From positions 1 through 32,496 of the IMG/VR virus record IMGVR_UViG_3300020471_000483: a stretch of DNA of 32,496 nt. The stretch is one strand, 5' to 3'. The position numbers and the translations under genes are program-made. The notes beneath the pieces were generated by a model, which did no database searches, was not told the DNA's origin, and saw only the letters and a program-made list of their open reading frames with translations. Below are positions 13,767 through 26,690 of the stretch, piece after piece; the first letter of the stretch is position 1, and the number at the start of each line of letters is the position of its first letter. This stretch comes from a virus.

Positions 13767-13787
13767 ACTACTTAAAGTCATTACACC

Positions 13788-14416: not shown

Positions 14417-14434
14417 GAAAAGGTCTGGGGACTG

Positions 14435-14442: not shown

Positions 14443-14741
14443 TTGGAAAATTTTTTTAATATGCATAGAATAAAAGTCTCGCTTTGGGATACTTTTGTAG
14501 GTTAGGGAAGTAAGCGTTTTTAATATTAGGGGCATAATATAACAATAATAGCACGAAATAACTGCAAATACTGCCCATACTGTGCCACTTGCATAACTGT
14601 CACATCAGTGGTTGCTCTCCCTACTGCTGTGTGCTATGGTGTCTTGCGTCCTGTAGTGCTAGAGTATAGGACTTAAATGCCCCATGTGTCTCCATGCCTG
14701 TGTAGTTAAATCTCCAAAAGAATTTCCTCCCTTTACTGTAT

Positions 14742-14955: not shown

Positions 14956-15001
14956 GGGCAAATAAAAGGCAAATAGAGGGCAAAGCAAGGCATAGCAAGG
15001 G
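14956..15001 (+). repeat. Degenerate short tandem repeats (GGCAAA-type)
   Basis: Four consecutive units of 10-12 bases beginning GGC: GGGCAAATAAAA, GGCAAATAGA, GGGCAAAGCAA, GGCATAGCAA, with a further AGCAAAGCAAG just before. Short direct repeats in a non-coding boundary could be iterons, a protein-binding array or simply low-complexity drift. Confidence 0.55.
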
Positions 15002-15096
15002 TTGTGTGAGAATCCTGTCATATGCTTGACAAAAAAATGTCCCTGTGTTACGCTCTAAGACAACAACAACTGCGAGACTTATACGACTCACAACTA

Positions 15097-15120
15097 TATT
15101 TATTTTAACATTTATTTATC
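15097..15120 (-). promoter_or_regulatory. Two late-promoter-like boxes
   Basis: GATAAATA (15120-15113, overlapping the stop of the 64-aa gene) and AATAAATA (15104-15097), both of the cyanophage NATAAATA type, in tandem at the early/late junction. They point to the non-coding region and the late module. Confidence 0.4.
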
Positions 15121-15310
15121 CTACCTCGTAACACATTCCTTCCAGTATAAACCTATCGCATAGTTGTTGATACTGTGTAAATACCTCGCATAAATCGGTG
15201 TCTATTAGAAACTGACACATTTCAATTTCGAGGTCTGCGGGTAGTCTTCCGCTATCATACAAATCTAAAAGACTTGCGAGTTTTTGGGGAAGTTGGTTTG
15301 CTGTTTCCAT
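15116..15310 (-). CDS. Hypothetical protein, 64 aa
   Basis: Not recognised. Mostly helical by eye (LPQKLASLLDLYDSGRLPAD, then IDTDLCEVFTQYQQLCDRFI), acidic overall, with three Cys. It is the last gene of the early side, with its own upstream hairpin and -10 site; the stop overlaps a late-promoter-like box. Confidence 0.65.
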   Translation of the reverse strand: METANQLPQKLASLLDLYDSGRLPADLEIEMCQFLIDTDLCEVFTQYQQLCDRFILEGMCYEVG

Positions 15311-15374
15311 GCTGTTTAGAAAGTTAGAAAATGGGCGGTAGAGTGGTGGCGAGTTGCGTTATCTACCTTTAATA

Positions 15375-15406
15375 ATAATAGTGACCTAATTAACCCTTTT
15401 TAGGTC
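15375..15406 (-). promoter_or_regulatory. Hairpin plus -10 element upstream of the 64-aa gene (second cassette type)
   Basis: Minus strand: GACCTAA (15406-15400), 10-base loop, TTAGGTC (15389-15383), then AC and TATTAT (15380-15375). The 7-bp arms and 10-base loop match the geometry of the main cassettes, but the arm sequence differs and the AGCAT box is absent. The element before the helicase gene has the same plan. Confidence 0.45.
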
Positions 15407-15498
15407 TTATATACTCTATCCTAACCCCTTTGCGTGGTATAATTAAGAGTAATGCCTATATAAAAAATTTGGCGTCTCGTATGCGAGGATATGGGGAA

Positions 15499-15819
15499 TT
15501 AGTCTATCGCTAACTCCATACCGCTTACGAAATCTTCTGATACGTTTTTGTATCCTACAAACCACTCAAAATTCTTCTGAAAAACTCTCATGCCATATGA
15601 GAATTCATAAAGTAGAGCGTTTAAGCGTGATTTAGTTGTATTGGATTGCCAACCGCCATCTTTGATTATGATTGAATTGCTTTTAACTGTTGCAATGTGA
15701 TTTCCATGTAAATAAACATCTGCTTCGCCCTCGAAACCATGTCTAACTGCTGTGTTAGAGGAAGTGAAGTTAACTCCGTTTCTGATTGCTGAATTCATTT
15801 GTCTTTCGATTTTACGCAT
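15499..15819 (-). CDS. Hypothetical phage protein, 106 aa
   Basis: Begins MRKIERQMNSAIRNGVNF and contains VYLHGNHIATVKSNSIIIKD and GWQSNTTKSRLNALLYEF, a set of motifs I have seen in small uncharacterised proteins of marine phages, including podoviruses; no function is known to me. It shares a loose pattern (NT near residue 23, then strand 'V-x-L-x-G/N-x-x-IAT') with the 138-aa protein at 16636-17052, so they may be distant paralogs. A good ribosome site (AGGAG) precedes the ATG. It is a single-gene unit with its own cassette promoter. Confidence 0.78.
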   Translation of the reverse strand: MRKIERQMNSAIRNGVNFTSSNTAVRHGFEGEADVYLHGNHIATVKSNSIIIKDGGWQSNTTKSRLNALLYEFSYGMRVFQKNFEWFVGYKNVSEDFVSGMELAID

Positions 15820-15852
15820 TTTGGAAAACTCCTGTTTGTTGCTTATGTTTAT

Positions 15853-15912
15853 ATTATAGTAGGTTTTTAATGCTACTGGTGGGTGTGTGTGCCACTAATT
15901 CAACTGTCACAC
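15853..15912 (-). promoter_or_regulatory. Hairpin-box promoter cassette 1
   Basis: First of ten cassettes with one plan (minus strand, 5' to 3'): hairpin at the end of the upstream gene, box, exactly 11 bases, -10. Here the arms are 15912-15905 and 15894-15887 (one mismatch, 10-base loop), the box is CAGTAGCAT (AGCAT at 15874-15870) and the -10 is TATAAT (15858-15853). No TTGACA lies at -35. The upstream stop codon abuts the hairpin. Drives the 106-aa gene. Confidence 0.75.
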
Positions 15913-16133
15913 TATAGGTTTTTTTGCACATATCTGTAGATATGCTCTAGTGTAGCAACTTCCATTTTTGCCTGTGCTTCATCTTGGTCTATAGTTGCTA
16001 CATCAACACCAAAATACAAATCGCTCCATGCCTTTTCAATACAGTTGTTTATTACTCTTCCTTTTATCAAAGTGCTTGGTCTCCCCTTAACGAAAGTCAC
16101 GTTATAAGTTTTGTTTGGATTGACTTTTTTCAT
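15912..16133 (-). CDS. Hypothetical protein, 73 aa
   Basis: Not recognised. Reads MKKVNPNKTYNVTFVKGRPS with beta character, then a helical C-terminus (DQDEAQAKMEVATLEHIYRY). Single-gene transcription unit between two promoter cassettes; its TAG lies at the edge of cassette 1. Confidence 0.7.
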   Translation of the reverse strand: MKKVNPNKTYNVTFVKGRPSTLIKGRVINNCIEKAWSDLYFGVDVATIDQDEAQAKMEVATLEHIYRYVQKNL

Positions 16134-16154
16134 GTTGTTTGTTTAATTACTCTT

Positions 16155-16214
16155 ATTATAGTGTAGTTTTAATGCTACTGGGGAAAGTGTGTGACACTTT
16201 GGTAAGTGTCACGC
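16155..16214 (-). promoter_or_regulatory. Hairpin-box promoter cassette 2
   Basis: The best hairpin of the series: arms 16212-16204 and 16199-16191 give 9 perfect pairs with a 4-base loop. Box CAGTAGCAT (AGCAT at 16176-16172), 11 bases, TATAAT (16160-16155). The extended inner pairing, absent in sister copies, argues for a folded nucleic acid rather than only two protein half-sites. Drives the 73-aa gene. Confidence 0.78.
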
Positions 16215-16370
16215 TCCTTGATAAACTTGGTTTGCTATCTCTCTATATTGAGACCATGCTATTTGAGTTGCCCTAATATTGCATACGTCTAGAGCATTTT
16301 GATTAATTTCAAATCCTGCTTCCTTGAGTTGTGAAACTAGGTCTTCAAAAATGAATTCGTAATCTTGCAT
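16209..16370 (-). CDS. Hypothetical protein, 53 aa
   Basis: ATG at 16370, stop TGA inside the hairpin arm of cassette 2. Starts MQDYEFIFEDLVSQLKEAGF and continues helical (ATQIAWSQYREIANQVYQGA). It follows the 62-aa gene by 4 bases, so they form a two-gene operon. Function unknown. Confidence 0.62.
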   Translation of the reverse strand: MQDYEFIFEDLVSQLKEAGFEINQNALDVCNIRATQIAWSQYREIANQVYQGA

Positions 16371-16374
16371 TTTC

Positions 16375-16563
16375 TTATATTCCCCTTACTGTGTTTGAGA
16401 GATATGTCTCTTTAGCATTGCAAACATTATCAACAAGATTATCGAAAGTTTGCATATCCCAACCTTTTTGCTCGGGGACGTCTAACTCATATGCCATCAT
16501 TACGAGGTCATAGAGGAATTCGTATTGTCCTGATGTGACCTCAATGTTTAAACCTTTTTTCAT
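16375..16563 (-). CDS. Small helical protein, 62 aa
   Basis: Opens MKKGLNIEVTSGQYEFLYDL: a strand, then a helix with the 'QY-x-x-LYD' pattern also seen in the proteins at 17500-17670 and 19625-19756. Those three may be paralogs. Function unknown. First gene of a two-gene unit behind cassette 3. Confidence 0.68.
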   Translation of the reverse strand: MKKGLNIEVTSGQYEFLYDLVMMAYELDVPEQKGWDMQTFDNLVDNVCNAKETYLSNTVRGI

Positions 16564-16589
16564 GATAGTTTCTCTGTGTGATTACTCTT

Positions 16590-16650
16590 ATTATAGTCCA
16601 GTTTTCATGCTACTGGGGAAAGTATGTGCCAGTAATTAAACTGTCACATA
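16590..16650 (-). promoter_or_regulatory. Hairpin-box promoter cassette 3
   Basis: Arms 16650-16642 and 16631-16623 (TATGTGACA-type, one mismatch), 10-base loop that contains the upstream gene's stop codon. Box CAGTAGCAT (AGCAT at 16611-16607), 11 bases, TATAAT (16595-16590). Confidence 0.75.
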
Positions 16651-17052
16651 TCTTACGTTTTCTATCTTGACATTTTGCTCAACATAGTGCTTAGTTAGAA
16701 AATTGCGGTATCTTACTGCATTGCTTCCTAAAACTCTTGCTATTGCTGTCTCATTGAATGAAATTTCGTCTATCTCCCATGTATCGTTTTCTATCGCTCT
16801 AATATATGCATAATCGCCTTTGCCTGAGTGGTCAAAGTCATTATAAAGTAATGTGCCACCATGTGTATTTCTGCTTGGATCATCCCATGCATGAGTATAG
16901 AAAATTGTTGCTATCTCTACATCATTAACAAATAACTTGCTAGTGAAATCGTTGCCTGTATGATGTGAGTTATGCATCATAGTGTTGTTTCTTAAACTGC
17001 AACTTTCTCTGTGGTTAATTGCTTTGATGATTCTCTCTTGGTAACAATCCAT
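16636..17052 (-). CDS. Hypothetical protein, 138 aa
   Basis: Not recognised. His/Asn-rich N-terminal half (NNTMMHNSHHTGNDF), a strand pair (SKLFVNDVEIATIFY), then a helix with Arg/Asn (NETAIARVLGSNAVRYRNFL). The last codons (VTV) are encoded by the hairpin of cassette 3. Possible distant relative of the 106-aa protein at 15499-15819. Single-gene unit. Confidence 0.72.
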   Translation of the reverse strand: MDCYQERIIKAINHRESCSLRNNTMMHNSHHTGNDFTSKLFVNDVEIATIFYTHAWDDPSRNTHGGTLLYNDFDHSGKGDYAYIRAIENDTWEIDEISFNETAIARVLGSNAVRYRNFLTKHYVEQNVKIENVRYVTV

Positions 17053-17079
17053 GATGATTAATTAATTTCGTATATTATT

Positions 17080-17141
17080 ATAATACACCAGATTTCATGC
17101 TACTGGTCAAAGTGTGTGACACTATTATAACTGTCATACAC
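17080..17141 (-). promoter_or_regulatory. Hairpin-box promoter cassette 4
   Basis: Arms 17141-17132 and 17121-17112 (GTGTATGACA against TGTCACACAC, 9 of 10 pairs), loop of 10. Box CAGTAGCAT (AGCAT at 17101-17097), 11 bases, TATTAT (17085-17080). The upstream 64-aa gene reads through the whole hairpin and stops at the TAG inside CAGTAGCAT. Confidence 0.73.
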
Positions 17142-17294
17142 CCTAATGCTTAATTCTGCATCTTGTGTTAATGTAATTCCCTCATCATCAAGTGCTTCCC
17201 AAATTAGGTTAGCAAGTTTTGAATGTTTATCCTCTGGGATTACTTCCCATAGGTTAATGTATCCATCTAACTCTATATGCTGTTGCCACTTCAT
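17100..17294 (-). CDS. Hypothetical protein, 64 aa, C-terminus encoded by a promoter cassette
   Basis: Starts MKWQQHIELDGYINLWEVIP directly after the upstream stop (TAA then ATG). Helix LANLIWEALDDEGITLTQDA follows. The last 14 residues (from RVYDSYN to FDQ) lie inside cassette 4, and the stop is the TAG of the promoter box. Acidic; function unknown. Confidence 0.65.
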   Translation of the reverse strand: MKWQQHIELDGYINLWEVIPEDKHSKLANLIWEALDDEGITLTQDAELSIRVYDSYNSVTHFDQ

Positions 17295-17507
17295 TTAGTC
17301 AAGTCTCCTAAGTTGTTTGTAATTGTGACACGTTACTCTTTTGCCTGTCTCATCAATGAGAATCGTGCGATTGAATAGAGGTGTGTATCCTGTCTTATCT
17401 GTCTCGCCTGATATGTAGTTTATTATCACTTGCCAAAATGACTTTTTATATTCTACATTATCCCCTACACCAATTTGGTTAACTGTGTGGTATTGTCTGT
17501 TACACAT
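17295..17507 (-). CDS. Hypothetical protein, 70 aa
   Basis: I choose ATG 17507 because AGGAG sits 9 bases upstream; a longer frame from TTG 17552 lacks such support and overlaps the previous gene more. Reads MCNRQYHTVNQIGVGDNVEY, then strand-rich (FWQVIINYISG, FNRTILIDETGKRV), so a small beta-barrel is possible. Overlaps the upstream 56-aa gene by 8 bases. Function unknown. Confidence 0.65.
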   Translation of the reverse strand: MCNRQYHTVNQIGVGDNVEYKKSFWQVIINYISGETDKTGYTPLFNRTILIDETGKRVTCHNYKQLRRLD

Positions 17508-17670
17508 TTGTATTTTTCTCCTTATCGAAAGATGGATAAAAGACTTTATCAAGAATTTTCTCGCTTAAGACTTCTTGCTCGTCACTCATGTAAACTCTAT
17601 AATTTTTAAATGAGTCATATAAGAGTTGATACTCTTCTCTTGTGAATTCTTCAATAATTACGTTTTTCAT
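17500..17670 (-). CDS. Small helical protein, 56 aa
   Basis: ATG at 17670 overlaps the upstream TGA (ATGA). Starts MKNVIIEEFTREEYQLLYDS: strand then helix, with the 'EY-x-LLYD' pattern of a possible small-protein family in this window. Function unknown. Confidence 0.65.
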   Translation of the reverse strand: MKNVIIEEFTREEYQLLYDSFKNYRVYMSDEQEVLSEKILDKVFYPSFDKEKNTNV

Positions 17671-17972
17671 GCCCAGTTACCTTTGTTGAATGATGTTAAT
17701 ACGGAATAAGAATAATTAAACTTATCTGTCAAAATATCCCTTACTCTCTCTCTGTCTAATGAATCTCCGTCTCCCCATGTGCAATTTTCAAAATCTTCAG
17801 ATTGACACCTGTCGAGATATACTATTGAAGCGTGTCTAATATCTTCCTTAGTTAGTGGTTGACCCTCGTAGTATAGTGGATATAATGGGTCATTCTGACC
17901 ATAGAATGAATCAACATAGTTAACGAAGTCATCTAGTTGCCTATGTGCTGTTAGAATTGAAAGAGGTGTCAT
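17667..17972 (-). CDS. Hypothetical protein, 101 aa
   Basis: Starts MTPLSILTAHRQLDDFVNYV with ribosome site AAGGAA. Acidic, aromatic-rich, with the segment FYGQNDPLYPLYYEGQPLTK suggesting a compact globular fold. First gene of a four-gene operon behind cassette 5. Not recognised. Confidence 0.72.
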   Translation of the reverse strand: MTPLSILTAHRQLDDFVNYVDSFYGQNDPLYPLYYEGQPLTKEDIRHASIVYLDRCQSEDFENCTWGDGDSLDRERVRDILTDKFNYSYSVLTSFNKGNWA

Positions 17973-17995
17973 AATTCCTTAATGTCTATATTAAT

Positions 17996-18054
17996 AGTAT
18001 AGTGGTAAATTTATGCTATGTGTGAAAGTATGTGACACTAATATAACTGTCACA
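17996..18054 (-). promoter_or_regulatory. Hairpin-box promoter cassette 5
   Basis: Arms 18054-18048 and 18037-18031 (TGTGACA/TGTCACA, 7 perfect pairs), loop 10. Box variant CACATAGCAT (AGCAT at 18017-18013), 11 bases, TATACT (18001-17996). Confidence 0.73.
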
Positions 18055-18073
18055 AAAGCGGTTGCAATTTTAC

Positions 18074-18409
18074 TCATAGGTATTCAATTTCTCCATTTTC
18101 AACTGCTTCCATATATTCACACATATCAGAATGTGCTTTGTCTTTATCTTCTTGCCATTGCTTCCAACATAGTTGTCTGTTAATGTCAAATAACTCACTT
18201 AGGTTAACACCTTCTAAGTCTGTCCAGTTGCCAACATAGTCAAGTTGCGACTCATCATAACCACCAGATTTGAGACTAGGGGCGGATATAAATTCAAATG
18301 CAATATCGATAAAAAAGTGCCTACCGAATTCTTCGCTCTCTATTGTCTGAAGTGGTAAAAACTTGCCATTATCCATTGCAAGATAGTCTTTAAATATATA
18401 AGTCCTCAT
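18074..18409 (-). CDS. Hypothetical protein, 111 aa
   Basis: Starts MRTYIFKDYLAMDNGKFLPL and ends in an acidic helix (DKDKAHSDMCEYMEAVENGE). ATG overlaps the previous stop (ATGA). Beta-rich N-terminal half, helical C-terminal half. Not recognised. Last gene before cassette 5. Confidence 0.72.
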   Translation of the reverse strand: MRTYIFKDYLAMDNGKFLPLQTIESEEFGRHFFIDIAFEFISAPSLKSGGYDESQLDYVGNWTDLEGVNLSELFDINRQLCWKQWQEDKDKAHSDMCEYMEAVENGEIEYL

Positions 18410-18585
18410 AATACATAACCTCGTAAATCATAATCAAAGTCATTTACATCATATCCTTTTGATGCTATTGTTTCAAGTATTATTTCATTAATCGTTGCTC
18501 TATCTCTTCGAGATAGTAATTCATAGATGTCAAAAGAATTGTCCTTGACTTCTAAAATTTTAACTTTTGGGTCATTGTTAGGCAT
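18406..18585 (-). CDS. Hypothetical protein, 59 aa
   Basis: ATG 18585 is preferred: GGGAG lies upstream with good spacing, whereas the longer frame starts at a TTG deep in the previous gene. Reads MPNNDPKVKILEVKDNSFDI, then a helix (RDRATINEIILETIASKGYD). Acidic; function unknown. Overlaps the 57-aa gene's stop by 8 bases. Confidence 0.65.
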   Translation of the reverse strand: MPNNDPKVKILEVKDNSFDIYELLSRRDRATINEIILETIASKGYDVNDFDYDLRGYVL

Positions 18586-18751
18586 TTTGGACTTTCTCCC
18601 ATAGATTTGAAAAATTTGTAATCCACTCCCCTTGCTCAACTGTCATTGCTGATAAATCTTGCTCATCAGCACTTATTTTAGGAAGTGAGTTTTCTGTTAG
18701 ATAGACTTCGTAAATGTCACATAAGAAATCTAGTGAATCGCTGTAAATCAT
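18578..18751 (-). CDS. Hypothetical protein, 57 aa
   Basis: Starts MIYSDSLDFLCDIYEVYLTE, followed by an acidic helix and a Trp-containing end (WITNFSNLWEKVQNA). Its opening resembles the 51-aa protein at 19891-20046 (SDLLCDLYDI), suggesting paralogs. First gene behind cassette 6; function unknown. Confidence 0.65.
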   Translation of the reverse strand: MIYSDSLDFLCDIYEVYLTENSLPKISADEQDLSAMTVEQGEWITNFSNLWEKVQNA

Positions 18752-18775
18752 AATGTGTGAGTGATTTATATTATT

Positions 18776-18836
18776 ATAATAGCAATGATTTTACGCTATG
18801 TGTAGCATTATGTGGCACTATTTAAACTGTCACATA
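18776..18836 (-). promoter_or_regulatory. Hairpin-box promoter cassette 6
   Basis: Arms 18836-18828 and 18817-18809 (8 of 9 pairs), loop 10. Box variant CACATAGCGT (AGCGT at 18797-18793), 11 bases, TATTAT (18781-18776). The upstream 83-aa gene reads through the hairpin and stops between hairpin and box. Confidence 0.72.
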
Positions 18837-19059
18837 TCTCGTTGACTTCTTCCAGAATTGTGTCATAATCATCTTCCCAGTAGTCCTTACAATCATTGAT
18901 AAATGCTTCATCAGATTGACTCTCAACATACTGGGTCATATCATTATATACATATTCAACTAAGTCTTTAGTTGACATATTGTCAACATATCTATCAACA
19001 AATAATTCTCTTAATTCACTTAGTTGTTGACTTGTTAATGAATTCTGCTCTTGCTTCAT
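18808..19059 (-). CDS. Acidic hypothetical protein, 83 aa
   Basis: Very acidic (runs such as DCKDYWEDDYDTILEEVNEI), helical, with FVDRYVDNMSTKDLVEYVYN in the middle, a pattern I believe recurs in small proteins of marine phages. DNA mimicry is one possibility for so acidic a protein, but nothing proves it. The C-terminal ten residues are encoded by the hairpin of cassette 6. It overlaps the upstream gene by 44 bases, unusually long for this region, so the start could lie further in. Confidence 0.65.
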   Translation of the reverse strand: MKQEQNSLTSQQLSELRELFVDRYVDNMSTKDLVEYVYNDMTQYVESQSDEAFINDCKDYWEDDYDTILEEVNEICDSLNSAT

Positions 19060-19216
19060 GATAATCTTTGAGTTGTTTTGTTAGTTTGTGATAAGCGTTA
19101 ATTAAGTCTTTATTATTCTCTTGGACTTCTTTATCTGTGTCTTCTGCTATCCATTGAATTGAATCAGTAATTTCAATGATTTCATCAGTTGTTAACCATA
19201 CTGCTAGTTGCTCCAT
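19016..19216 (-). CDS. Hypothetical helical protein, 66 aa
   Basis: ATG 19216 with GGAG about 8 bases upstream is preferred over a GTG three codons earlier. Reads MEQLAVWLTTDEIIEITDSI, then a long charged helix (NKDLINAYHKLTKQLKDYHE). Looks like a helical hairpin. Function unknown; member of the eight-gene unit behind cassette 7. Confidence 0.65.
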   Translation of the reverse strand: MEQLAVWLTTDEIIEITDSIQWIAEDTDKEVQENNKDLINAYHKLTKQLKDYHEARAEFINKSTTK

Positions 19217-19218
19217 AG

Positions 19219-19431
19219 TTACCACTCCATAGTTGGTTGCTTACTTTGTGCCTTCTTTATCTTTTCTTCTTTTGCTACTTCTTTATCAATTAAATCGTGC
19301 AATATAGAGCATATGCGGGCATTTTTGGATAATTCTGCTCGTTGTAACTCTAAGTCTTCAATGTCTTTAATGTTGTAATAGTCTTGGTCAAGACAATCAA
19401 CAATATAGAATAATTCTTCTTTAGTAAACAT
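19219..19431 (-). CDS. Hypothetical helical protein, 70 aa
   Basis: ATG 19431 (GGAG upstream) is preferred to a TTG three codons earlier. Begins MFTKEELFYIVDCLDQDYYN, the common small-phage helical-hairpin plan (T-x-E-E-L-x-x-I-x-x-x-L, then a linker, then a second helix AELSKNARICSILHDLIDKE). Function unknown. Confidence 0.65.
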   Translation of the reverse strand: MFTKEELFYIVDCLDQDYYNIKDIEDLELQRAELSKNARICSILHDLIDKEVAKEEKIKKAQSKQPTMEW

Positions 19432-19433
19432 GA

Positions 19434-19619
19434 CTACCAATCTCCATTTGAGTCAGCATAGCAATCTTCATTCCAATGCTCGTATGGTTTTATGACACCA
19501 ACGTGTCTCATGATACCATCATAAATTTCCATGCCTGACCTAGACATACGTCCACATGAATAATCCCAACCTAATTCTGCAAGTTGGTCAACAATAAATT
19601 TGAGTGATACTTTTTTCAT
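19434..19619 (-). CDS. Hypothetical protein, 61 aa
   Basis: Reads MKKVSLKFIVDQLAELGWDY and a Trp/Tyr-rich tail (HWNEDCYADSNGDW). Not recognised. Ends three bases before the next ATG. Confidence 0.62.
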   Translation of the reverse strand: MKKVSLKFIVDQLAELGWDYSCGRMSRSGMEIYDGIMRHVGVIKPYEHWNEDCYADSNGDW

Positions 19620-19624
19620 AATAA

Positions 19625-19756
19625 TTAATCCATTAATTTGTCAAAGAATGTTTCGATTTCCTTAGGTAGGTCATCTATCATACCAGTATCTCTAAGTAAA
19701 TCATATAATTTAATGAGTTGATATTGCTCATCAAATGTTATTTCAAATTTATTCAT
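19625..19756 (-). CDS. Microprotein, 43 aa
   Basis: ATG 19756 overlaps the previous TGA (ATGA). MNKFEITFDEQYQLIKLYDL continues into a second helix (PKEIETFFDKLMD). Strand-helix-helix plan shared with the proteins at 16375 and 17500. Function unknown. Confidence 0.6.
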   Translation of the reverse strand: MNKFEITFDEQYQLIKLYDLLRDTGMIDDLPKEIETFFDKLMD

Positions 19757-19890
19757 ACTGCTAACTCCCTAGTAATTGATAATTCTTCTATAATAGAGTT
19801 AACTGCTTCAATATATTCTGAGTCAGCATACTTAACTGAATTGTCAAGTGCTAATAGAATAATATCAATTTGATTTCTTGATAACGTCAT
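19753..19890 (-). CDS. Microprotein, 45 aa
   Basis: Starts MTLSRNQIDIILLALDNSVK; two predicted helices. The TGA overlaps the next ATG. This kind of 'MTLT-x-x-x-I-x-x-I-x-x-AL' hairpin is common in phages, without known function. Confidence 0.6.
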   Translation of the reverse strand: MTLSRNQIDIILLALDNSVKYADSEYIEAVNSIIEELSITRELAV

Positions 19891-20046
19891 TTAGATAGAC
19901 TCCTCTAGTAATTGAATTGCATTTTCTAGGACTTCATCAATAGTAAATGATGTGCCTTCGTTATCTTTAGGTAACTTACCAAAACCGCATAGTTTACCCA
20001 TTTCTCTAATATCATAGAGGTCACATAATAAATCTGAAGTATTCAT
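19891..20046 (-). CDS. Microprotein, 51 aa
   Basis: ATG 20046 overlaps the upstream TGA (ATGA). Reads MNTSDLLCDLYDIREMGKLC, then GFGKLPKDNEGTSF and a C-terminal acidic helix. Resembles the start of the 57-aa protein at 18578-18751. Function unknown. Confidence 0.6.
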   Translation of the reverse strand: MNTSDLLCDLYDIREMGKLCGFGKLPKDNEGTSFTIDEVLENAIQLLEESI

Positions 20047-20225
20047 TGACATAACTCCTCAAATCTTCTTGTTGCTTCCTCTGCAATTACTGGTAAGTAA
20101 CCATACTGAGAGTTTTGCTCGAGTGCATATAACTGGTCATCAGTTAGATTATGCTCTTTACGATAATCTTCCCATGACTCATCATAACAAGTTTCGAGTA
20201 ATGTTTCGTGATGTAGTGATGACAT
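20043..20225 (-). CDS. Hypothetical protein, 60 aa
   Basis: Reads MSSLHHETLLETCYDESWED and a second helix (LPVIAEEATRRFEELCQ). AGGA ribosome site 5 bases upstream. First gene of an eight-gene operon of microproteins. Function unknown. Confidence 0.65.
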   Translation of the reverse strand: MSSLHHETLLETCYDESWEDYRKEHNLTDDQLYALEQNSQYGYLPVIAEEATRRFEELCQ

Positions 20226-20250
20226 AAAATCCTCGTTTGTTTATATTATT

Positions 20251-20310
20251 ATTATAGTGTAGTTTTGATGCTACTGGTAAAATGATGTGACACTAATTCA
20301 ACTGTCACAT
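20251..20310 (-). promoter_or_regulatory. Hairpin-box promoter cassette 7
   Basis: Arms 20310-20303 and 20292-20285 (ATGTGACA/TGTCACAT, 8 perfect pairs), loop 10, directly after the upstream stop. Box CAGTAGCAT (AGCAT at 20272-20268), 11 bases, TATAAT (20256-20251). The cleanest consensus copy. Confidence 0.8.
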
Positions 20311-20585
20311 TAAGACCACTTACCTCCATGCTCCGTTTTGATTCCTGCTCTAAATGGGTCTCCATCAACCCAATCGATTTTAGATTCTTTGTTTGCTATG
20401 TCAAAACAGATTTCGCACATACAATCAACTTTAGGAAATTTACGTCTCCAGTTGTAATCCTCTTCACAAAAATCTCCGTCCCAATAATAATATAATTCTG
20501 GTTGATAATCTGGTAATGCTTTAATAGATGGTTCGCCATCAGTATGCTCATCATCAAAATTACCACATACGTCACAATATGCCAT
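20310..20585 (-). CDS. Cys-rich (zinc-finger-like) protein, 91 aa
   Basis: Starts MAYCDVCGNFDDEH: a C-x2-C pair at residues 4-7, a second Cys group further on (CMCEICFD), and a lone Cys in between (DFCEEDYNW). Together these could form a two-Cys-pair zinc site. Rich in Asp, Glu, Trp and Tyr. Possible small DNA- or protein-binding factor; partner unknown. Second gene behind cassette 8. Confidence 0.72.
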   Translation of the reverse strand: MAYCDVCGNFDDEHTDGEPSIKALPDYQPELYYYWDGDFCEEDYNWRRKFPKVDCMCEICFDIANKESKIDWVDGDPFRAGIKTEHGGKWS

Positions 20586-20587
20586 GA

Positions 20588-20755
20588 TTAAAAGTCCTCT
20601 AGTGTTAAATTGTTAACTGCATCAAATACTTTATCTACCATTGAGTCAAAAGTATCTGTGTCAAATCTATCACTCCTATATTTGTCTGTTTTAGGGTGTG
20701 ATAATAATTGAGTGAGTGACATATGCTCCTCTATTGTTAGATTAATTCGTGGCAT
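20588..20755 (-). CDS. Hypothetical protein, 55 aa
   Basis: ATG 20755 with AGGAC upstream. Reads MPRINLTIEEHMSLTQLLSH and ends VFDAVNNLTLEDF. It is translated from an mRNA with an unusual hairpin leader (20777-20829) and ends 2 bases before the next ATG. Function unknown. Confidence 0.65.
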   Translation of the reverse strand: MPRINLTIEEHMSLTQLLSHPKTDKYRSDRFDTDTFDSMVDKVFDAVNNLTLEDF

Positions 20756-20776
20756 TGAATTGTCCTATAAAATGAT

Positions 20777-20829
20777 TATCAGGTTAAAGGTATCCCTTAG
20801 CACTTGTGAATGTAAGCATTAACCTGATA
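20777..20829 (-). promoter_or_regulatory. Leader hairpin at the 5' end of the 55-aa gene mRNA
   Basis: Minus strand TATCAGGTTA (20829-20820) pairs perfectly with TAACCTGATA (20786-20777) across 33 bases. A second small hairpin (AAGG-GATA-CCTT) lies inside. With the cassette 8 -10 at 20840-20835, transcription should begin at or next to the first base of the stem. Confidence 0.55.
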
Positions 20830-20834
20830 TATTT

Positions 20835-20893
20835 AATATACATCATTTTTGATGCAACGTGTAGAATAATGTGACACTAATACAAGTGTCACA
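20835..20893 (-). promoter_or_regulatory. Hairpin-box promoter cassette 8
   Basis: Arms 20893-20885 and 20878-20870 (9 perfect pairs, 6-base loop). Box variant CACGTTGCAT (TGCAT at 20856-20852), 11 bases, TATATT (20840-20835). The hairpin starts 3 bases after the helicase stop. Confidence 0.74.
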
Positions 20894-20896
20894 CAT

Positions 20897-22129
20897 TTAT
20901 CCCACATAAGCGGTTGCAGGGATACCTTGAATGAATATCTCATCTACAACTCTTTGTAATCTGGTTAGAGTCCTCTTGCCATGATTCTTATGAATAGGTA
21001 TAGTTACATAACCAGTTGGTTTACGATATAGTTGCAACTGTCCACGAGGTATAACACCATTAGCAATGTCAGTAGCATCATCAGGGTGTAATCTAATCAC
21101 TCTACCAACTGTTTGTGCCATTGATACTACACTCTGATTTCTCAATAGAATACAATGGGTTAATCCACTCACATTGATACCTTCAGATAATATACTATAA
21201 TGAAAGATAACAAATTTCTTGAGTGGGTCTTTACCCCATGATGTAAGAGTATCAAAGAATTTCTCTCTATTCACTTTAGTGTGATTGACATATGCTCCTA
21301 ACTTACTTGTTATGTGTAATATGTTATACCCACGCTCGGCAAGTTGGGGCAATATATCTGTCTCTACTAGCATATTTCTAAGTATATTGCTACTAGGAAC
21401 TGCAACTAATACTTTAGATGATGACTCAATGTCTAGGTCATCAAGAATATCAGTTACTGTATCGCTGTGGACTAGATGTCTATTCTTCTTGTCAACATCA
21501 TGTGATGTTGTGAATGGCACTATAGTAGGTGGTATGATGCTACCATTGTCAATAAGAGTAGGTGCAGGCACACTCTCAATTACATGACCGAAAACCTTAT
21601 GGTTATTCATACCTCTTTCATGCTTATATGATATTTTAGGTGTTGCTGTGAAAAAATACTTTCTCTCACATATCATAGTCATATCTTTTACTGCATCAAA
21701 GAATTGCTTACTGCAACTATTATGTGCTTCATCACAATACATTACACTAACCTCAATACTAGGACTAGATGTGATTTTATGCAATGAATGATATGTTGTG
21801 AAAATGATTTGATTCTTGACACTTCCTAAGTGCCACTCTTCAATCTCGTCAGTTTTAGTTGTGCTAGTATGATGTGTCTCTCCACTATGGACGTGTAAGA
21901 CATCAACATTATCAATATGCTCTAGAAAATCATTAGATAACTGATTTGCTAGTAGAATACGAGGGGCGACTACAACAACAGTTTTGAATTGTCCTTTTAA
22001 CAACTCTTTAGCGTGCTGTATCATTATGAAAGTTTTACCGCCACCTGTAGGCACAATAATCTGACCATGATGAGATAACTGCATTGACTTCAATGCGGTC
22101 TCTTGATGTGGTCTCAACCTAATTGGCAT
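20897..22129 (-). CDS. SF2 DEAH-type helicase (ResIII-like)
   Basis: 410 aa with all core SF2 motifs: Walker A PTGGGKT (residues 27-33), motif II DEAH (133-136), motif III TAT (161-163), and motif VI QTVGRVIR in the second RecA domain near residue 345. These enzymes translocate on or unwind nucleic acid using ATP. It lacks extra nuclease or binding domains. It is shorter than typical UvsW and may be a UvsW-like recombination/branch-migration helicase or an accessory early helicase. It is a single-gene unit with its own promoter-like element and a following hairpin. Confidence 0.88.
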   Translation of the reverse strand: MPIRLRPHQETALKSMQLSHHGQIIVPTGGGKTFIMIQHAKELLKGQFKTVVVVAPRILLANQLSNDFLEHIDNVDVLHVHSGETHHTSTTKTDEIEEWHLGSVKNQIIFTTYHSLHKITSSPSIEVSVMYCDEAHNSCSKQFFDAVKDMTMICERKYFFTATPKISYKHERGMNNHKVFGHVIESVPAPTLIDNGSIIPPTIVPFTTSHDVDKKNRHLVHSDTVTDILDDLDIESSSKVLVAVPSSNILRNMLVETDILPQLAERGYNILHITSKLGAYVNHTKVNREKFFDTLTSWGKDPLKKFVIFHYSILSEGINVSGLTHCILLRNQSVVSMAQTVGRVIRLHPDDATDIANGVIPRGQLQLYRKPTGYVTIPIHKNHGKRTLTRLQRVVDEIFIQGIPATAYVG

Positions 22130-22147
22130 TAATAAACTTTAACTAAT

Positions 22148-22196
22148 AATATAATAACCTCTAATACGTTGTTACGCACTAGAGGTTGTGACAGTT
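22148..22196 (-). promoter_or_regulatory. Hairpin plus -10 element upstream of the helicase (second cassette type)
   Basis: Minus strand: TGTCAC (one half of the usual arm), then AACCTCTA (22187-22180) and TAGAGGTT (22163-22156), 8 perfect pairs around a 16-base loop, followed at once by TATTAT (22156-22151) or TATATT (22153-22148). No AGCAT box at the usual spacing. Same plan as the element at 15375-15406. Confidence 0.45.
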
Positions 22197-22206
22197 TTCA
22201 AATTGG

Positions 22207-22350
22207 TTACTTGATACAATAGTCTGTGTCAATTTTACATAATTCATCAGATAATCTCTGATTTCTTTCATTCCTATCAATCTTAAGTGACCCACGAATG
22301 AGACTAAGAAAAACGAGACCTATAAAAATGTATAGTAAATAAGGTTTCAT
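22207..22350 (-). CDS. Small membrane-anchored protein, 47 aa
   Basis: Starts MKPYLLYIFIGLVFLSLIRG, a hydrophobic N-terminal segment able to span the membrane, then a charged tail (DRNERNQRLSDELCKIDTDY). ATG overlaps the upstream TGA (ATGA). Likely inner-membrane anchored; function unknown. Confidence 0.62.
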   Translation of the reverse strand: MKPYLLYIFIGLVFLSLIRGSLKIDRNERNQRLSDELCKIDTDYCIK

Positions 22351-22589
22351 AAATCGTATTGATAATCTTTAAATGTTAATTCGTGCATATCTAAATCTCT
22401 CTTTAAATCAGCAATGACATCTAATAATACTTGATTAGTGTAATTAGTTGCAAATTGCAGGGATTGACAACCAATATCATTTGGTGTTGCTTTCTCTCCC
22501 ATATCCATTGCTTTCTGTAACTGTGTAATTATATTTGAAACTCTCTCGACTCTCATACAAACTACATCAGGTGTGTTATGCTTTACCAT
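22347..22589 (-). CDS. Hypothetical protein, 80 aa
   Basis: Starts MVKHNTPDVVCMRVERVSNI; largely helical (TQLQKAMDMGEKATPND, then VLLDVIADLKRDLDMHELTF). Lies between two small membrane proteins with overlaps at both ends. Function unknown. Confidence 0.68.
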   Translation of the reverse strand: MVKHNTPDVVCMRVERVSNIITQLQKAMDMGEKATPNDIGCQSLQFATNYTNQVLLDVIADLKRDLDMHELTFKDYQYDL

Positions 22590-22728
22590 TAGGTCTATCC
22601 CTATTAAGTGGACTATTAAAATACGCTCTATTTGTGAAATATAATAATACTAGCGTAAAAAGAATACCACCAAAACCTATTAATAGTATTGGACTATGTG
22701 GAAAATCGTATTGTGGTATTGTTGTCAT
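22576..22728 (-). CDS. Small single-span membrane protein, 50 aa
   Basis: ATG 22728. Contains a strong hydrophobic helix, residues 13-31 (PILLIGFGGILFTLVLLYF), and a basic polar tail (NRAYFNSPLNRDRPNGKA). First coding gene after a roughly 150-nt structured leader. Overlaps the next start by 14 bases. Possible role in host envelope or photosystem membranes is speculation. Confidence 0.65.
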   Translation of the reverse strand: MTTIPQYDFPHSPILLIGFGGILFTLVLLYFTNRAYFNSPLNRDRPNGKA

Positions 22729-22753
22729 AATATTTAGTAAATTTGATTGACGA

Positions 22754-22902
22754 GAGGAAACAAAACCGACTCAACTGCTTAAGTTCTATTTAAAAGCGTA
22801 TGCAATACAGGTCAAGAGGTGCTTCACTTCTCAAAGGAAGTACTAACTCAGTAATGGTGTCCGCTACCTTGAAAGTCTTATGTCAAGTGGGTTTGTTTCC
22901 CC
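22754..22902 (-). ncRNA. Candidate structured RNA or long 5' leader, about 149 nt
   Basis: Non-coding. The minus-strand 5' end GGGGAAACAAACCC (22902-22889) pairs with GGTTTTGTTTCCTC (22767-22754): 13 of 14 positions pair, one as G-U. Inside are hairpins CUUGA/UCAAG, ACUUC/GAAGU, GUAU/AUAC and an AAGC/GCUU-type stem, suggesting a multi-branch RNA. The TATTAT at 22914-22909 places the start of transcription at the first G of the stem. It lies 26 bases before a small membrane protein gene, so it could be a cis-regulatory leader or a separate RNA. I match it to no known family. Confidence 0.45.
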
Positions 22903-22908
22903 ATTAAT

Positions 22909-22930
22909 ATAATAACACAAATAGCATCAT
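22909..22930 (-). promoter_or_regulatory. Degenerate box promoter for the structured RNA
   Basis: TATTAT (22914-22909) with CACATGAT 11 bases upstream, a poor match to the CACATAGCAT box. A TGTCACA half-site follows the upstream stop, but no hairpin forms. Confidence 0.4.
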
Positions 22931-22950
22931 GTGGCAAATCAATGTGACAG

Positions 22951-23496
22951 TTAGTTACCTGGTACATGAAACTCATCTAAACAACTAAACATCATACCTA
23001 GACTAACTCTATATCCTTCATCTGGTGCTTCCCCTCTATGCTCCTCGTATGAATCAAATATAACGAGTCTCCCTTCTTTAAATGGTATTCTATCATGTCC
23101 TACAACTGTGTCTCCACTACTACCATGAGCATGATATATTACTGATAGCATTTTCTCGTCTCTAGAATCACAATCTCTGTGTTGCACTCCATCTTGCCCC
23201 TTAACTTGTCCATTGACTAATACTCTATGCACATTTGTTGCTTTGTCTTTACATATATCATTTACTATGCTACCAGTAAGATAGGGAATAAACCATGATT
23301 GCAACTCTGGTGGAATTGTCCACTCATCATTTGTCATTAACATATTGCCAAAGAATCTACTCCCCTCGCCATATGTTAGTTTACTGCTGTTACTATATGA
23401 TACTGGGAAGTTTTCAAAATACTCTGACACCTGACTAACTATCCACTCAGGAAAATAGTCATCAACTATTCTGTAATCCATACCTCTAAGTTTCAT
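22951..23496 (-). CDS. 2OG-Fe(II) oxygenase
   Basis: 181 aa. Fe(II)/2-oxoglutarate dioxygenase signature: HRD in GVQHRDCDSRDEK near residues 105-107, the strand SSGDTVVGHD, then the distal His in SYEEHRGEAPDEGYRVSLG with the 2OG-binding Arg ten residues later. The double-stranded beta-helix order and length suit a small hydroxylase of the phage 'prolyl 4-hydroxylase-like' group. Substrate unknown. It closes the restriction-modification operon, overlapping the coiled-coil gene by 11 bases. Confidence 0.82.
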   Translation of the reverse strand: MKLRGMDYRIVDDYFPEWIVSQVSEYFENFPVSYSNSSKLTYGEGSRFFGNMLMTNDEWTIPPELQSWFIPYLTGSIVNDICKDKATNVHRVLVNGQVKGQDGVQHRDCDSRDEKMLSVIYHAHGSSGDTVVGHDRIPFKEGRLVIFDSYEEHRGEAPDEGYRVSLGMMFSCLDEFHVPGN

Positions 23497-23692
23497 TGTT
23501 TAGATAATCCTGTTTCGCTTTGAGTTGTTGCTCTCTTGCTTTGTCCAGTATATCTTTTAATTCTTTTGCTGAATTGACTCTATCAATAATAGACTCCTCT
23601 AGGTTATCACTCCCTAAGATACTATTATTATATTTGTGTAATTTGTCTAGCAATTCTTTTGCTTTCTTCTCTGCTTCGTCTCCTACTGACAT
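23486..23692 (-). CDS. Coiled-coil small protein, about 68 aa
   Basis: I favour ATG 23692, just inside the previous gene's end (AGAGG upstream); a longer frame begins at 23731. Sequence MSVGDEAEKKAKELLDKLHK then IIDRVNSAKELKDILDKARE is almost wholly charged helix. Function unknown; co-transcribed with the methyltransferase. Confidence 0.62.
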   Translation of the reverse strand: MSVGDEAEKKAKELLDKLHKYNNSILGSDNLEESIIDRVNSAKELKDILDKAREQQLKAKQDYLNNET

Positions 23693-23913
23693 TTGTGATA
23701 CACCTCTACAAATGTCGCACAATTCATACATGAAAAATTAGACACAATGTCATAATCGTCTTGCTCTAAATCGTGGTCTCCACCCCATACTAACTCACTA
23801 CCACAATGCCAACAAGTAAATCGTTGTTGCTGTTGTGATTTAATACTTCTATTCCTGTATTCTCTCTCATCAATCCATCTATCTAATGAATCTAAATCTG
23901 CTCCATTTCTCAT
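23683..23913 (-). CDS. Zinc-ribbon-like protein, 76 aa
   Basis: ATG 23913 is chosen: AGGAGA lies 8 bases upstream and the ATG overlaps the previous TGA (ATGA), while the longer frame starts at TTG. It holds two C-x2-C knuckles (CWHCGSELVW and FSCMNCATFV) 24 residues apart, the standard zinc-ribbon layout. The N-terminus is charged (RWIDEREYRNRSIKSQQQQR). Probably a nucleic-acid or protein-binding factor. Confidence 0.7.
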   Translation of the reverse strand: MRNGADLDSLDRWIDEREYRNRSIKSQQQQRFTCWHCGSELVWGGDHDLEQDDYDIVSNFSCMNCATFVEVYHKCQ

Positions 23914-24116
23914 GATGTAATCTCCTGATAATCCCAATTTTCATCTGTTGGCACATCTACCCAAAACCAATAGTCTGGGTTATGAATAGCACTTAAAAAC
24001 CACCTATGACTTCTTTTATGCTCTATGTGACAAATAGAATTGCTGTTTAAATATGTAGCATAGGTGTATTTTGCTTTGTCACTCTTGGGTATGACTCTAC
24101 ATTTTTGTCTTAACAT
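23910..24116 (-). CDS. Hypothetical protein, 68 aa
   Basis: Basic N-terminal part (MLRQKCRVIPKSDKAKYTYA) and a Trp-rich acidic end (NPDYWFWVDVPTDENWDYQE). Overlaps the end of the methyltransferase by 7 bases. Not recognised. Confidence 0.65.
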   Translation of the reverse strand: MLRQKCRVIPKSDKAKYTYATYLNSNSICHIEHKRSHRWFLSAIHNPDYWFWVDVPTDENWDYQEITS

Positions 24117-24943
24117 AATCGTGTCAATAGATTATCTTGTAGTGGTCTAACCCTATCCTCACACATTTTATGATAGGTAGGGTCAATCTCAAATCCTATA
24201 AAATCTCTCTTCTCTTCTATACTTATTTGTGCTGTTGTGCCACTACCCATAAATGGGTCAACAACTACGTCTCCCTCATTGCTCCATGTCTGTATGTGAC
24301 CTCGTGCCAACTCCTCAGGCATTGTTGCAGGGTGTTTATATGAATTCTTGTTAGTCTGTCCAAATCCTCCACAATTCTTAATTCTCCATATATTATTTCT
24401 TGCTCCGAATTCCTTGATAGGATTAGTTTTATTCTCTCTAATAATTAACTCTCCGTCTTTTCCTCTACTTCTTGCTTTACCCCATGATGTTGACCCTGCC
24501 CACTTGTTAGGTTTATCCATAATAATATTAACAGTTTTTGGTCTCCCCTTAGATAGTATAAAGCAATATTCAAATGCCTGACTATATCTAACAGACTTCG
24601 ACCCACTAGCGAATGCTATGCCTGTCTTTTCATATATCATAGTGTCATGTAATCTTAAACCACACTCATCTTTAAAATATAATGCCTGTCTAAAACTACT
24701 ACCGCTCTCGCTACCATCTATCGTAGCGTCTCCCACATTCCACATGATGACACCACCATCTTTTAATACTCTTGTCAATGCCTGTGCAACATCTTTGAAT
24801 ACATTAAAATCCCACTTACTACTATCGTTGTAAGTCCTCATATCATCATAGGGTGGACTTGTAATACATAAGTCAACAGAATTTGCATTGAGTTGATTTA
24901 ACCCCTCAATGCAATTCATATTATAGGTTTTATTCAATTCCAT
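24110..24943 (-). CDS. Class-beta DNA methyltransferase (N4-cytosine or N6-adenine)
   Basis: 277 aa from ATG 24943, which I prefer because a longer frame (to 25084) would run 110 bases into the nuclease gene; AGAGG lies upstream of 24943. Motif IV TSPPYDD is at residues 28-34 and the SAM-binding motif I DPFMGSGTT at 229-237. Catalytic motif first and SAM motif last is the class-beta order. TSPPY is compatible with N4-methylcytosine or N6-methyladenine. A target-recognition region lies between (FGARNNIWRIKNCGGFGQTN). With the upstream nuclease it forms a likely type II restriction-modification pair; alternatively it only protects phage DNA. Confidence 0.88.
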   Translation of the reverse strand: MELNKTYNMNCIEGLNQLNANSVDLCITSPPYDDMRTYNDSSKWDFNVFKDVAQALTRVLKDGGVIMWNVGDATIDGSESGSSFRQALYFKDECGLRLHDTMIYEKTGIAFASGSKSVRYSQAFEYCFILSKGRPKTVNIIMDKPNKWAGSTSWGKARSRGKDGELIIRENKTNPIKEFGARNNIWRIKNCGGFGQTNKNSYKHPATMPEELARGHIQTWSNEGDVVVDPFMGSGTTAQISIEEKRDFIGFEIDPTYHKMCEDRVRPLQDNLLTRLC

Positions 24944-24974
24944 AAACTGTTGTAACCTCTGAATTATACCACAA

Positions 24975-25607
24975 TTACTTGTAGTATGCAACCAGTATAT
25001 CAGTTGGTAGAGGTAAGAAGTGTAGTTTCTTAACTGCCTTCTTGATTTTACCATATTGAGATAATATGCAACCTTCCTCATCATTGAGTAACTCTAGAGT
25101 AGAGAATGAATCCTTCCTACCTGATGATGACTTCCATACGTTTGACTCTGTTAGGTCAGTATCGATAACAACCATACCGAAACTATCAATTTTATTGTTA
25201 TTGAAAGTATATTTGATTGACCATACTAAGTTAGTCTTTGCACCACCGAAGTGAGAAGTCTTGTTACCAGTAGCAAATGATGATTTGCTCTCTCCACCCA
25301 TGAGTTTAAACTCAACTGGTGTGTCATGAAACTTGTAGTCATAACCTGATACCTCTTCTCTAACACCATTGATACCTAGTTTCTCAATGCCTGCTTCAAT
25401 AACATCATTGACAATATACTGGAAAAACTTAGTGAAGTCTGCTGTATTCATAGTATCTTTGTAATCTTGTAGTGTCTTACCATAGATTTCAAATGTCTCA
25501 AGATACTTGTTTGTTTCGATAATAGTCCATGTTGTTAGTTTCTCTAAGTCTCTAACAATCTTTGCCTGTGTATCTGTATTTGTTTTTGCTATTGAATTAA
25601 TAGTCAT
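24975..25607 (-). CDS. Putative PD-(D/E)XK restriction endonuclease
   Basis: 210 aa. The catalytic pattern D90-x8-E99-x-K101 is seen in SGYDYKFHDTPVEFKLMG, followed by a strand/helix continuation (NLVWSIKYTF, DSFGMVVIDTD) as in PD-(D/E)XK nucleases. The N-terminal 80 residues are helical and may bind DNA. It lies directly upstream of the methyltransferase, separated by about 30 bases, in one operon behind cassette 9. The family is not identified more closely. It could instead be a nuclease attacking host or rival phage DNA, with the methyltransferase guarding the phage. Confidence 0.68.
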   Translation of the reverse strand: MTINSIAKTNTDTQAKIVRDLEKLTTWTIIETNKYLETFEIYGKTLQDYKDTMNTADFTKFFQYIVNDVIEAGIEKLGINGVREEVSGYDYKFHDTPVEFKLMGGESKSSFATGNKTSHFGGAKTNLVWSIKYTFNNNKIDSFGMVVIDTDLTESNVWKSSSGRKDSFSTLELLNDEEGCILSQYGKIKKAVKKLHFLPLPTDILVAYYK

Positions 25608-25629
25608 GTTTCTGTGTGATTATATTAAT

Positions 25630-25689
25630 ATTATACACAACTTTTTACGCTGTGTGTAAGGGTGTGTGACAGTTGATTAATCGTCATAC
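25630..25689 (-). promoter_or_regulatory. Hairpin-box promoter cassette 9
   Basis: Arms 25689-25683 and 25670-25664 (6 pairs plus one mismatch or wobble, 12-base loop containing the upstream stop). Box variant CACACAGCGT (AGCGT at 25651-25647), 11 bases, TATAAT (25635-25630). Drives the nuclease-methyltransferase operon. Confidence 0.72.
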
Positions 25690-26072
25690 TTGGGAAAGTC
25701 TTTTCTATTGAAGATGTGACCAAAAGTGCTTTCGCCATAACAATCAATCTCCTCATAATCTCCTTTTAATTTATTGACCCATATATCCTCATAGTCAATG
25801 GTTACCCAACTAGGGATATTTTTTGTCTCTTCGCATATTTCATTGACCCAATGCCATGCGAAATCTTGTCCTGTTTCAAACTGACCTTCATACATATCTT
25901 CAAATTTTAAAAGGTATGATGGGTCACAATCGAATTCATCAATAAACAAGTCAACTAACTCTGTGCTATATTTGTTGACAAGTTTAAGATATGTTGGATA
26001 AAACTCTACAAACTGCTCTTCTGAGTAGTTTTCAATAAATCTTTTTTGCTCTTCGTCAAATTTTAAATTCAT
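25677..26072 (-). CDS. ArdA-like antirestriction protein, 131 aa
   Basis: The central region resembles the ArdA C-terminal half: DMYEGQFETGQDFAWHWVNE, then IPSWVTIDYEDIWVNKLKGD and GHIFNR, matching the ArdA order 'Y-x-G-x-F-x-x-x-x-x-FA ... DY-x-x-x-x-x-x-L ... DY ... F'. ArdA proteins mimic the shape and charge of DNA and block type I restriction enzymes. The protein is very acidic (over 30 Asp/Glu of 131), as expected for a DNA mimic. It is shorter than plasmid ArdA (about 165 aa) and lacks most of its N-terminal domain. It is a single-gene unit next to the restriction-modification operon. Confidence 0.6.
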   Translation of the reverse strand: MNLKFDEEQKRFIENYSEEQFVEFYPTYLKLVNKYSTELVDLFIDEFDCDPSYLLKFEDMYEGQFETGQDFAWHWVNEICEETKNIPSWVTIDYEDIWVNKLKGDYEEIDCYGESTFGHIFNRKDFPKYDD

Positions 26073-26094
26073 GATAATAAATCTATCTGATATA

Positions 26095-26150
26095 AAGATA
26101 CATCATATTTCATGCTGTGTGTAGGGTTGTGTGACACTTTGTCAACTGTC
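26095..26150 (-). promoter_or_regulatory. Hairpin-box promoter cassette 10
   Basis: The weakest hairpin: GACA/TGTC outer arms (26150-26147, 26136-26133) or a tight TGACA/TGTCA hairpin (26144-26132). Box variant CACACAGCAT (AGCAT at 26116-26112), 11 bases, TATCTT (26100-26095). Drives the ArdA-like gene. Confidence 0.66.
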
Positions 26151-26477
26151 CTATCTCTTATTCATAGGTGGTAAATACTCATTTCCTGGGTGGTCATTGG
26201 TTTTTCCACGATAATTCTTTTTATTTTGGAAGTGTGTATCTTCTATTTCTAATTCGTCCCAATCTTGTTGACGACATATTATATTTACTTCTCTCTCTTT
26301 ATTTCTATATGTCTCGTCAGGTATTTTTCTAACACATATTGTTATGTAATCATTGCATATAAAACTAATTAACCCCTCGTCACTTCTAAACCTAACAGGC
26401 ATACCAATCTCTAGAGATTTTAAAATGTTTCTAATTTCCAACGGAATTGCCTCTGATAAGAAAATAGGTATGGTCAT
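26151..26477 (-). CDS. Hypothetical protein, 108 aa
   Basis: Starts MTIPIFLSEAIPLEIRNILK; the first half is beta-rich (MPVRFRSDEGLISFICNDYI, TICVRKIPDE) and the tail basic and polar (NKKNYRGKTNDHPGNEYLPP). Not recognised. ATG overlaps the previous TGA. Last gene of the halogenase-oxygenase operon. Confidence 0.7.
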   Translation of the reverse strand: MTIPIFLSEAIPLEIRNILKSLEIGMPVRFRSDEGLISFICNDYITICVRKIPDETYRNKEREVNIICRQQDWDELEIEDTHFQNKKNYRGKTNDHPGNEYLPPMNKR

Positions 26478-26689
26478 CTAAGATTTAATTTATCTGCAAT
26501 CTCTCCTATTATAACACGTTGTGCTTCAGATAATTTACCAATATGCTCGTATGTATCCTTTTGAAATAAGAATAATGCCTTCTTGATAAGGTCTTTCTCC
26601 TCTGATGAAAGAAGTTGAGATTTTAATGTAAACATAACTGACTCCGCATGAGATTCTATGAATGATTCATAGTCTTTACTATTTAACAT
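26474..26689 (-). CDS. Hypothetical helical protein, 71 aa
   Basis: ATG 26689 (GGGAG upstream) is preferred over ATG 26746, which lies deep in the oxygenase gene. Reads MLNSKDYESFIESHAESVMF and two further helices (SSEEKDLIKKALFLFQKD; SEAQRVIIGEIADKLNLR). Function unknown. Confidence 0.65.
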   Translation of the reverse strand: MLNSKDYESFIESHAESVMFTLKSQLLSSEEKDLIKKALFLFQKDTYEHIGKLSEAQRVIIGEIADKLNLR

Positions 26690-26690
26690 A

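Follow-up and report, generated by a model that had tools for sequence, protein, structure and literature searches.

Repeated dyad-containing promoter cassettes, similar in layout to PeSL elements, between small gene groups of an uncultured T4-like cyanomyovirus

The DNA considered here is one entire IMG/VR record of 32,496 nt (IMGVR_UViG_3300020471_000483, hereafter the window) from an uncultured T4-like cyanomyovirus, whose genes include a baseplate wedge protein (phrog_219), a DNA methyltransferase, 2OG-Fe(II) oxygenase-like genes, a tryptophan halogenase and a 410-aa helicase with 58% identity to its counterpart in cyanophage P-TIM40. Adjoining genes at 26691-29938 (minus strand) match the 2OG-Fe(II) oxygenase/'endonuclease V' PHROGs phrog_81 and phrog_274; the halogenase lies near them at 31101, and another phrog_274 gene is found at 22951. 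Twelve cassettes of 58-60 bp are confined to 14.5-26.2 kb, between small variable genes, which is also where PeSL cassettes are located; the genes of this region are read from the minus strand, and each cassette closes one small gene group and opens the next (Table 1). The surroundings of the region in P-TIM40 are similar. A first-pass annotation had listed ten recurrent blocks at operon junctions. All ten are present, each listed position being that of the 3' end of a minus-strand -10 box, but two further junctions with a dyad and a -10, also on the minus strand, had been overlooked (the eleventh and twelfth sites). An independent repeat search of the window returned nine 71-nt copies. Trained in part on these window copies, a weight matrix for the 24-bp dyad gave 24 matches in the window, one on each strand at 12 sites (23-24 with the choice of cut-off), and none in shuffled sequence. 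The scan of the window showed no dyad cassette among the tail genes or in the 2OG-oxygenase/halogenase cluster. The twelfth site is separated from the ORF at 22576-22728 by a non-coding leader of ~170 nt (22740-22908, minus strand), and the related genome G001 has a leader in a similar place, partly diverged in sequence. Rfam covariance models gave no match in 13000-27500, this leader included, up to E=0.5, and a tRNA search found nothing.

Table 1. Dyad-promoter cassettes of the window and the gene lying between two of them.
Feature	Coordinates	Strand	Description
Cassette	15853..15911	-	Dyad 15888-15911; CCAGTAGCAT box; -10 15853-15858
Cassette	16155..16213	-	Dyad 16190-16213, containing the TGA stop of ORF 16209-16370; CCAGTAGCAT box; -10 16155-16160
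Cassette	16590..16648	-	Dyad 16625-16648, containing the TAA stop of ORF 16636-17052; CCAGT/ACTGG inverted-repeat box; -10 16590-16595
Cassette	17080..17138	-	Dyad 17115-17138; CCAG/CTGG inverted-repeat box; -10 TATTAT; upstream ORF crosses the dyad, with its stop codon in the box
Cassette	17996..18054	-	Dyad 18031-18054; CACATAGCATAAA box; -10 TATACT
Cassette	18776..18834	-	Dyad 18811-18834; CACATAGCGTAAA box with ATAGC/GCTAT; -10 TATTAT
Cassette	20251..20309	-	Dyad 20286-20309; CCAGTAGCAT box; -10 TATAAT
Cassette after helicase gene	20835..20893	-	Dyad 20870-20893; CACGTTGCAT box; -10 TATATT; ~80-nt leader
Cassette B	25630..25688	-	Dyad 25665-25688; CACACAGCGTAAA box (TACACA/TGTGTA); -10 TATAAT; before ORF 24975-25607
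Cassette A	26095..26153	-	Dyad 26130-26153; CACACAGCATGAAA box; -10 TATCTT; before ORF 25677-26072
Eleventh site	14545..14604	-	Dyad 14581-14604; unrelated spacer; -10 TATTAT
Twelfth site	22909..22966	-	Degenerate dyad 22943-22966; unrelated spacer; -10 TATTAT; then ~170-nt leader
Gene between cassettes A and B	25677..26072	-	Anti-restriction family phrog_36653

On the coding strand the cassette is formed by the stop codon of one gene, the dyad, a spacer of 28-30 nt with the 'box', a TATAAT-like -10 and the start codon of the next gene. The annotated order of hairpin, box, -10 and next gene thus holds, but two of its parts have to be redefined: the 'hairpin' GTGACAGTTnnnTTAGTGTCAC is a dyad, nearly palindromic but with mismatches that are conserved, and forms a 24-mer resembling TGTGACAGTTnnATTAGTGTCACA; the 'box' is the -35/-10 spacer, of which there are two forms related to each other, CCAGTAGCATnAAAA and CACAyAGCrTAAA. 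The dyad occupies positions -65 to -42 (centre -53.5), and the distance from the -10 to the start codon is usually ~22-34 nt and once ~80 nt. The -10 is clear in most window copies and the -35 is poor (0-4 of 6 matches); in relatives the -35 is somewhat enriched, with 36% against 9% having at least 4 of 6 matches. The upstream stop codon lies in the dyad or within ~20 nt of it in nine copies, and in the spacer in one. By mechanical gene calls over 14 sequences, 88 of 118 upstream stops lay inside the dyad or at most 25 nt from its start, and 60 of the 118 lay inside.

The nature of the repeat was settled with the weight matrix and with statistics on its two arms. If the cassettes were true PeSLs, the conserved inverted repeat would be an RNA stem-loop terminator followed by a sigma-70 early promoter, and the layout of stop codon, inverted repeat, promoter and next gene fits such a reading. 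The distance from the repeat to the -10 is nevertheless fixed, which a terminator does not need: at non-redundant sites oriented by dyad asymmetry alone, an exact TATAAT follows the 24-mer 71 times at offset 29, 27 times at offset 30 and 10 times at offset 28, with none or one at most others. A protein site would be expected to show such spacing, a terminator would not. As a control of the dyad length, patterns exceeding it by one or two bases matched 1 and 13 stretches in the viral_contigs set, against at least 120 for the correct length. The arms were compared in 444 non-redundant sites of relatives, some 2-10% of which may be chance because the -10 filter that selected them passes 9-49 at other offsets; at one position the combinations were A-T 111, A.G 129, C.T 69 and C-G 110 (p=0.13), that is, without covariation. 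A second position is anti-paired (135 paired vs 261 mismatched, OR 0.31, p=5e-7), and remains so at higher score cut-offs. The reading of the conserved repeat as an RNA hairpin, on which the first-pass annotation had relied, was ruled out by the absent covariation and the anti-paired position; judged on sequence, the repeat is a DNA dyad, and an RNA stem is not supported.

A dyad held at a fixed place beside a promoter could equally well be the operator of a repressor, by which a phage protein would silence the early operons at a later stage of infection. Centres outside the -35/-10 core are, on the other hand, more typical of activators, and the centre at -53.5 lies there. The poor -35 of the window promoters, with at most 4 of 6 matches, also speaks against repression and suggests a need of activation, so that an operator of this kind is unlikely.

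The spacer behaves differently from the dyad. Dyads are nearly as alike between genomes as within them (0.71 and 0.73), whereas spacer likeness is 0.43 within and 0.31 between genomes (window-G001 0.53, window-P-TIM40 0.28); by this comparison of sequences the spacer is lineage-specific, in contrast to the group-wide dyad. In the window lineage it holds a second, sequence-variable inverted repeat whose arms go together, as swapping spacer halves among cassettes weakens the fold (pooled p=2e-4, window ten p=0.017, held-out contig p=0.02; these values are optimistic, since the copies are related). The same swap test was unsupportive in P-TIM40 and P-RSM4 (p about 0.63); a universal spacer hairpin was dropped for this reason, and the claim is restricted to the window lineage and terminator-type copies. 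Across the family, spacers fold better than their own shuffles, with 172 of 444 in the lowest decile compared with 62 of 442 and 44 of 443 controls, and 44 of the 444 resemble terminators, having a U-tract near the -10; the corresponding numbers were 0.9 for shuffles and 1 and 0 for the flanking controls. In these 44 cassettes of relatives the intrinsic terminator runs into the -10. Such terminators and the weak hairpin in the box of the window lineage are what a true PeSL would have in its favour beyond the layout. An effective terminator was nevertheless not found in the window phage: the dyad lacks covariation and a U-tract, and the spacer hairpin is weak and has no U-tract either, which leaves the stem-loop terminator, one half of a PeSL, without support in this phage. 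Together with the fixed spacing and the anti-paired position, this makes a true PeSL quite improbable.

The cassette is widespread among related marine myoviruses: it occurs in P-TIM40, P-RSM4, P-SSM2, S-SSM7 and Syn9, and in the window it is the promoter-containing cassette that is conserved between unrelated small genes, as had been proposed. In whole-genome pattern searches the dyad was found in P-TIM40 and P-RSM4; MbCM1, S-SSM7 and P-SSM2 were dyad-rich, P-SSM4, S-PM2 and P-HM2 had a few each, and T4 and RB49 gave no match. Syn9 gave none by the strict pattern and about four sites by weight matrix; P-TIM40 has about 10, mostly at 45-55 kb of 189 kb, and nearly all sites in these two phages share the same spacing. 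In P-RSM6, a cultured relative, dyad sites are almost absent even though a comparable region is there, which indicates that the element can be lost or replaced. The exact dyad pattern had no match in Prochlorococcus or Synechococcus genomes in the genome_contigs scan, and a host regulator is not favoured for that reason, although a host protein with looser sites is still compatible. Two multi-copy 'bacterial' contigs in that scan are phage-like: NHFO01000063.1, from a Flavobacteriales MAG, and NZ_RMVE01000006.1, assigned to Nonlabens xiamenensis and 188,235 nt long (about one cyanomyovirus genome). They carry window-type and P-TIM40-type cassettes and look like cyanophage sequence inside bacterial assemblies.

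It had also been proposed that the cassettes explain how small genes shuffle in this region. When relatives were compared, 13 of 41 borders at which synteny resumes, not all independent because border pairs share genomes, were 12 nt or less from the 5' border of a cassette, where shifted positions gave 1.0 and random gene ends 5.9 (p=0.0005); the count of 13 is inflated to the extent that alignments end at a cassette simply because it is conserved. The most direct case is seen at cassettes A and B. The window has, in order, gene 26151-26477, cassette A, gene 25677-26072, cassette B and gene 24975-25607, whereas in NHFO01000063.1 (C54), the one contig that gives this evidence and which is located in a bacterial MAG, the middle gene and one cassette are missing and a single chimera of A and B stands in their place (C54:1310). 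Its left side is A-like (upstream flank 0.88 to A vs 0.27 to B; dyad 0.92 vs 0.71), its -10 region is B-like (0.82 to B vs 0.59 to A), and the downstream gene is also that of B. At this locus two cassettes appear to have recombined, with a whole gene swapped in or out. G001 has an extra stretch of ~250 nt immediately upstream of cassette A.

The cassettes could still be promoters only, with breakpoints coinciding because a conserved cassette stands between variable genes; such an account bears on the shuffling and leaves the promoter claim aside. It fits the 28 of 41 borders that lie away from cassettes and the two genes (19434-19619 and 19891-20052) that are absent from the relatives compared and sit within an operon. 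Gene 16375-16563, directly behind a different cassette in C54, can be read in the same way, and this small gene appears to have moved between operons. The chimera, with the intervening gene gone, and the enrichment even against random gene ends stand against it, and a role as promoters only is somewhat unlikely. Breakpoints are thus enriched at cassette borders but most lie elsewhere, and since other gains and losses occur inside operons, cassettes account for part of the gene turnover only.

Each block is likely a complete early-promoter module of the Kyanoviridae that combines a dyad bound by an activator, a spacer free to vary and a recombination joint. The module would probably be read by the host RNA polymerase with a putative dyad-binding activator. 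A DNA-binding protein, most likely an activator that is host-encoded or delivered with the virion, would dock on the 24-bp dyad and bring the polymerase to a -10 box accompanied by a poor -35. The sequence from dyad to -10 can vary and is private to a lineage, and in relatives it often contains a hairpin or full terminator by which the upstream transcript would be ended. As the dyad usually supplies or abuts the upstream stop codon, the module starts where one gene ends and would bring along all that the following operon requires. Because modules are repeated, homologous recombination could take place between them, and units of a gene with its promoter would be gained or lost in this way. A possible, more tentative extension is a three-layer promoter, with a group-wide dyad for one factor, a lineage-private spacer and a -10, that would act as regulator, terminator and recombination joint at once; the spacers may be kept alike within a phage through concerted evolution by cassette recombination, and could terminate the preceding operon.

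PeSL cassettes of T4-type phages were reportedly described by Arbiol and colleagues in 2010 and Comeau and colleagues in 2014, and the latter are said to have included the marine vibriophages nt-1 and KVP40. The claim that the window extends the idea to a marine phage was therefore overstated, and PeSLs had also been discussed, and doubted, for cyanophage S-PM2 (PMC4503421). The features shared with PeSLs are a short, repeated, promoter-containing cassette between small genes in a plastic region, a start near the upstream stop codon and a proposed role of recombination between copies in gene gain and loss; cyanophage relatives also share with PeSLs a terminator nested inside the cassette. No sequence relation was found, with 0 matches in T4 and RB49, and the window cassette differs in its 24-bp dyad at fixed distance, its poor -35 and its lack of a U-tract terminator. 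The annotated likeness of layout with a different sequence is sound, but its stem-loop half is not, as the dyad arms do not covary. The cassette is not filed as a PeSL, since its conserved repeat does not behave as a stem-loop; it is PeSL-like in layout and probably also in evolutionary effect. A novel early-gene regulatory element was reportedly described by Doron and colleagues in 2016 (ISME J) in the T4-like cyanophages Syn9 and P-TIM40. The dyad-promoter module was found in both phages and is widespread in the group, and the cyanophage early regulatory element has probably already been published for these two phages. The cassette resembles T4 middle promoters in that a non-canonical box (there the MotA box) precedes a sigma-70 -10 and takes the place of a good -35, but it has a separate distal dyad and a box that varies between lineages. 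T4-like middle promoters, and motA and/or asiA, are reportedly missing from marine T4-like cyanophages (PMC5780444).

T4-like cyanophages are among the commonest viruses of the ocean, and both the switching of their early genes and the exchange of their small genes are at issue here. Gene loss that is bounded by cassettes and leaves a chimera offers a testable route of gene turnover, of a kind judged unlikely for S-PM2 earlier (PMC4503421), and the dyad, with its fixed geometry, would provide a concrete bait for finding an early transcription factor.
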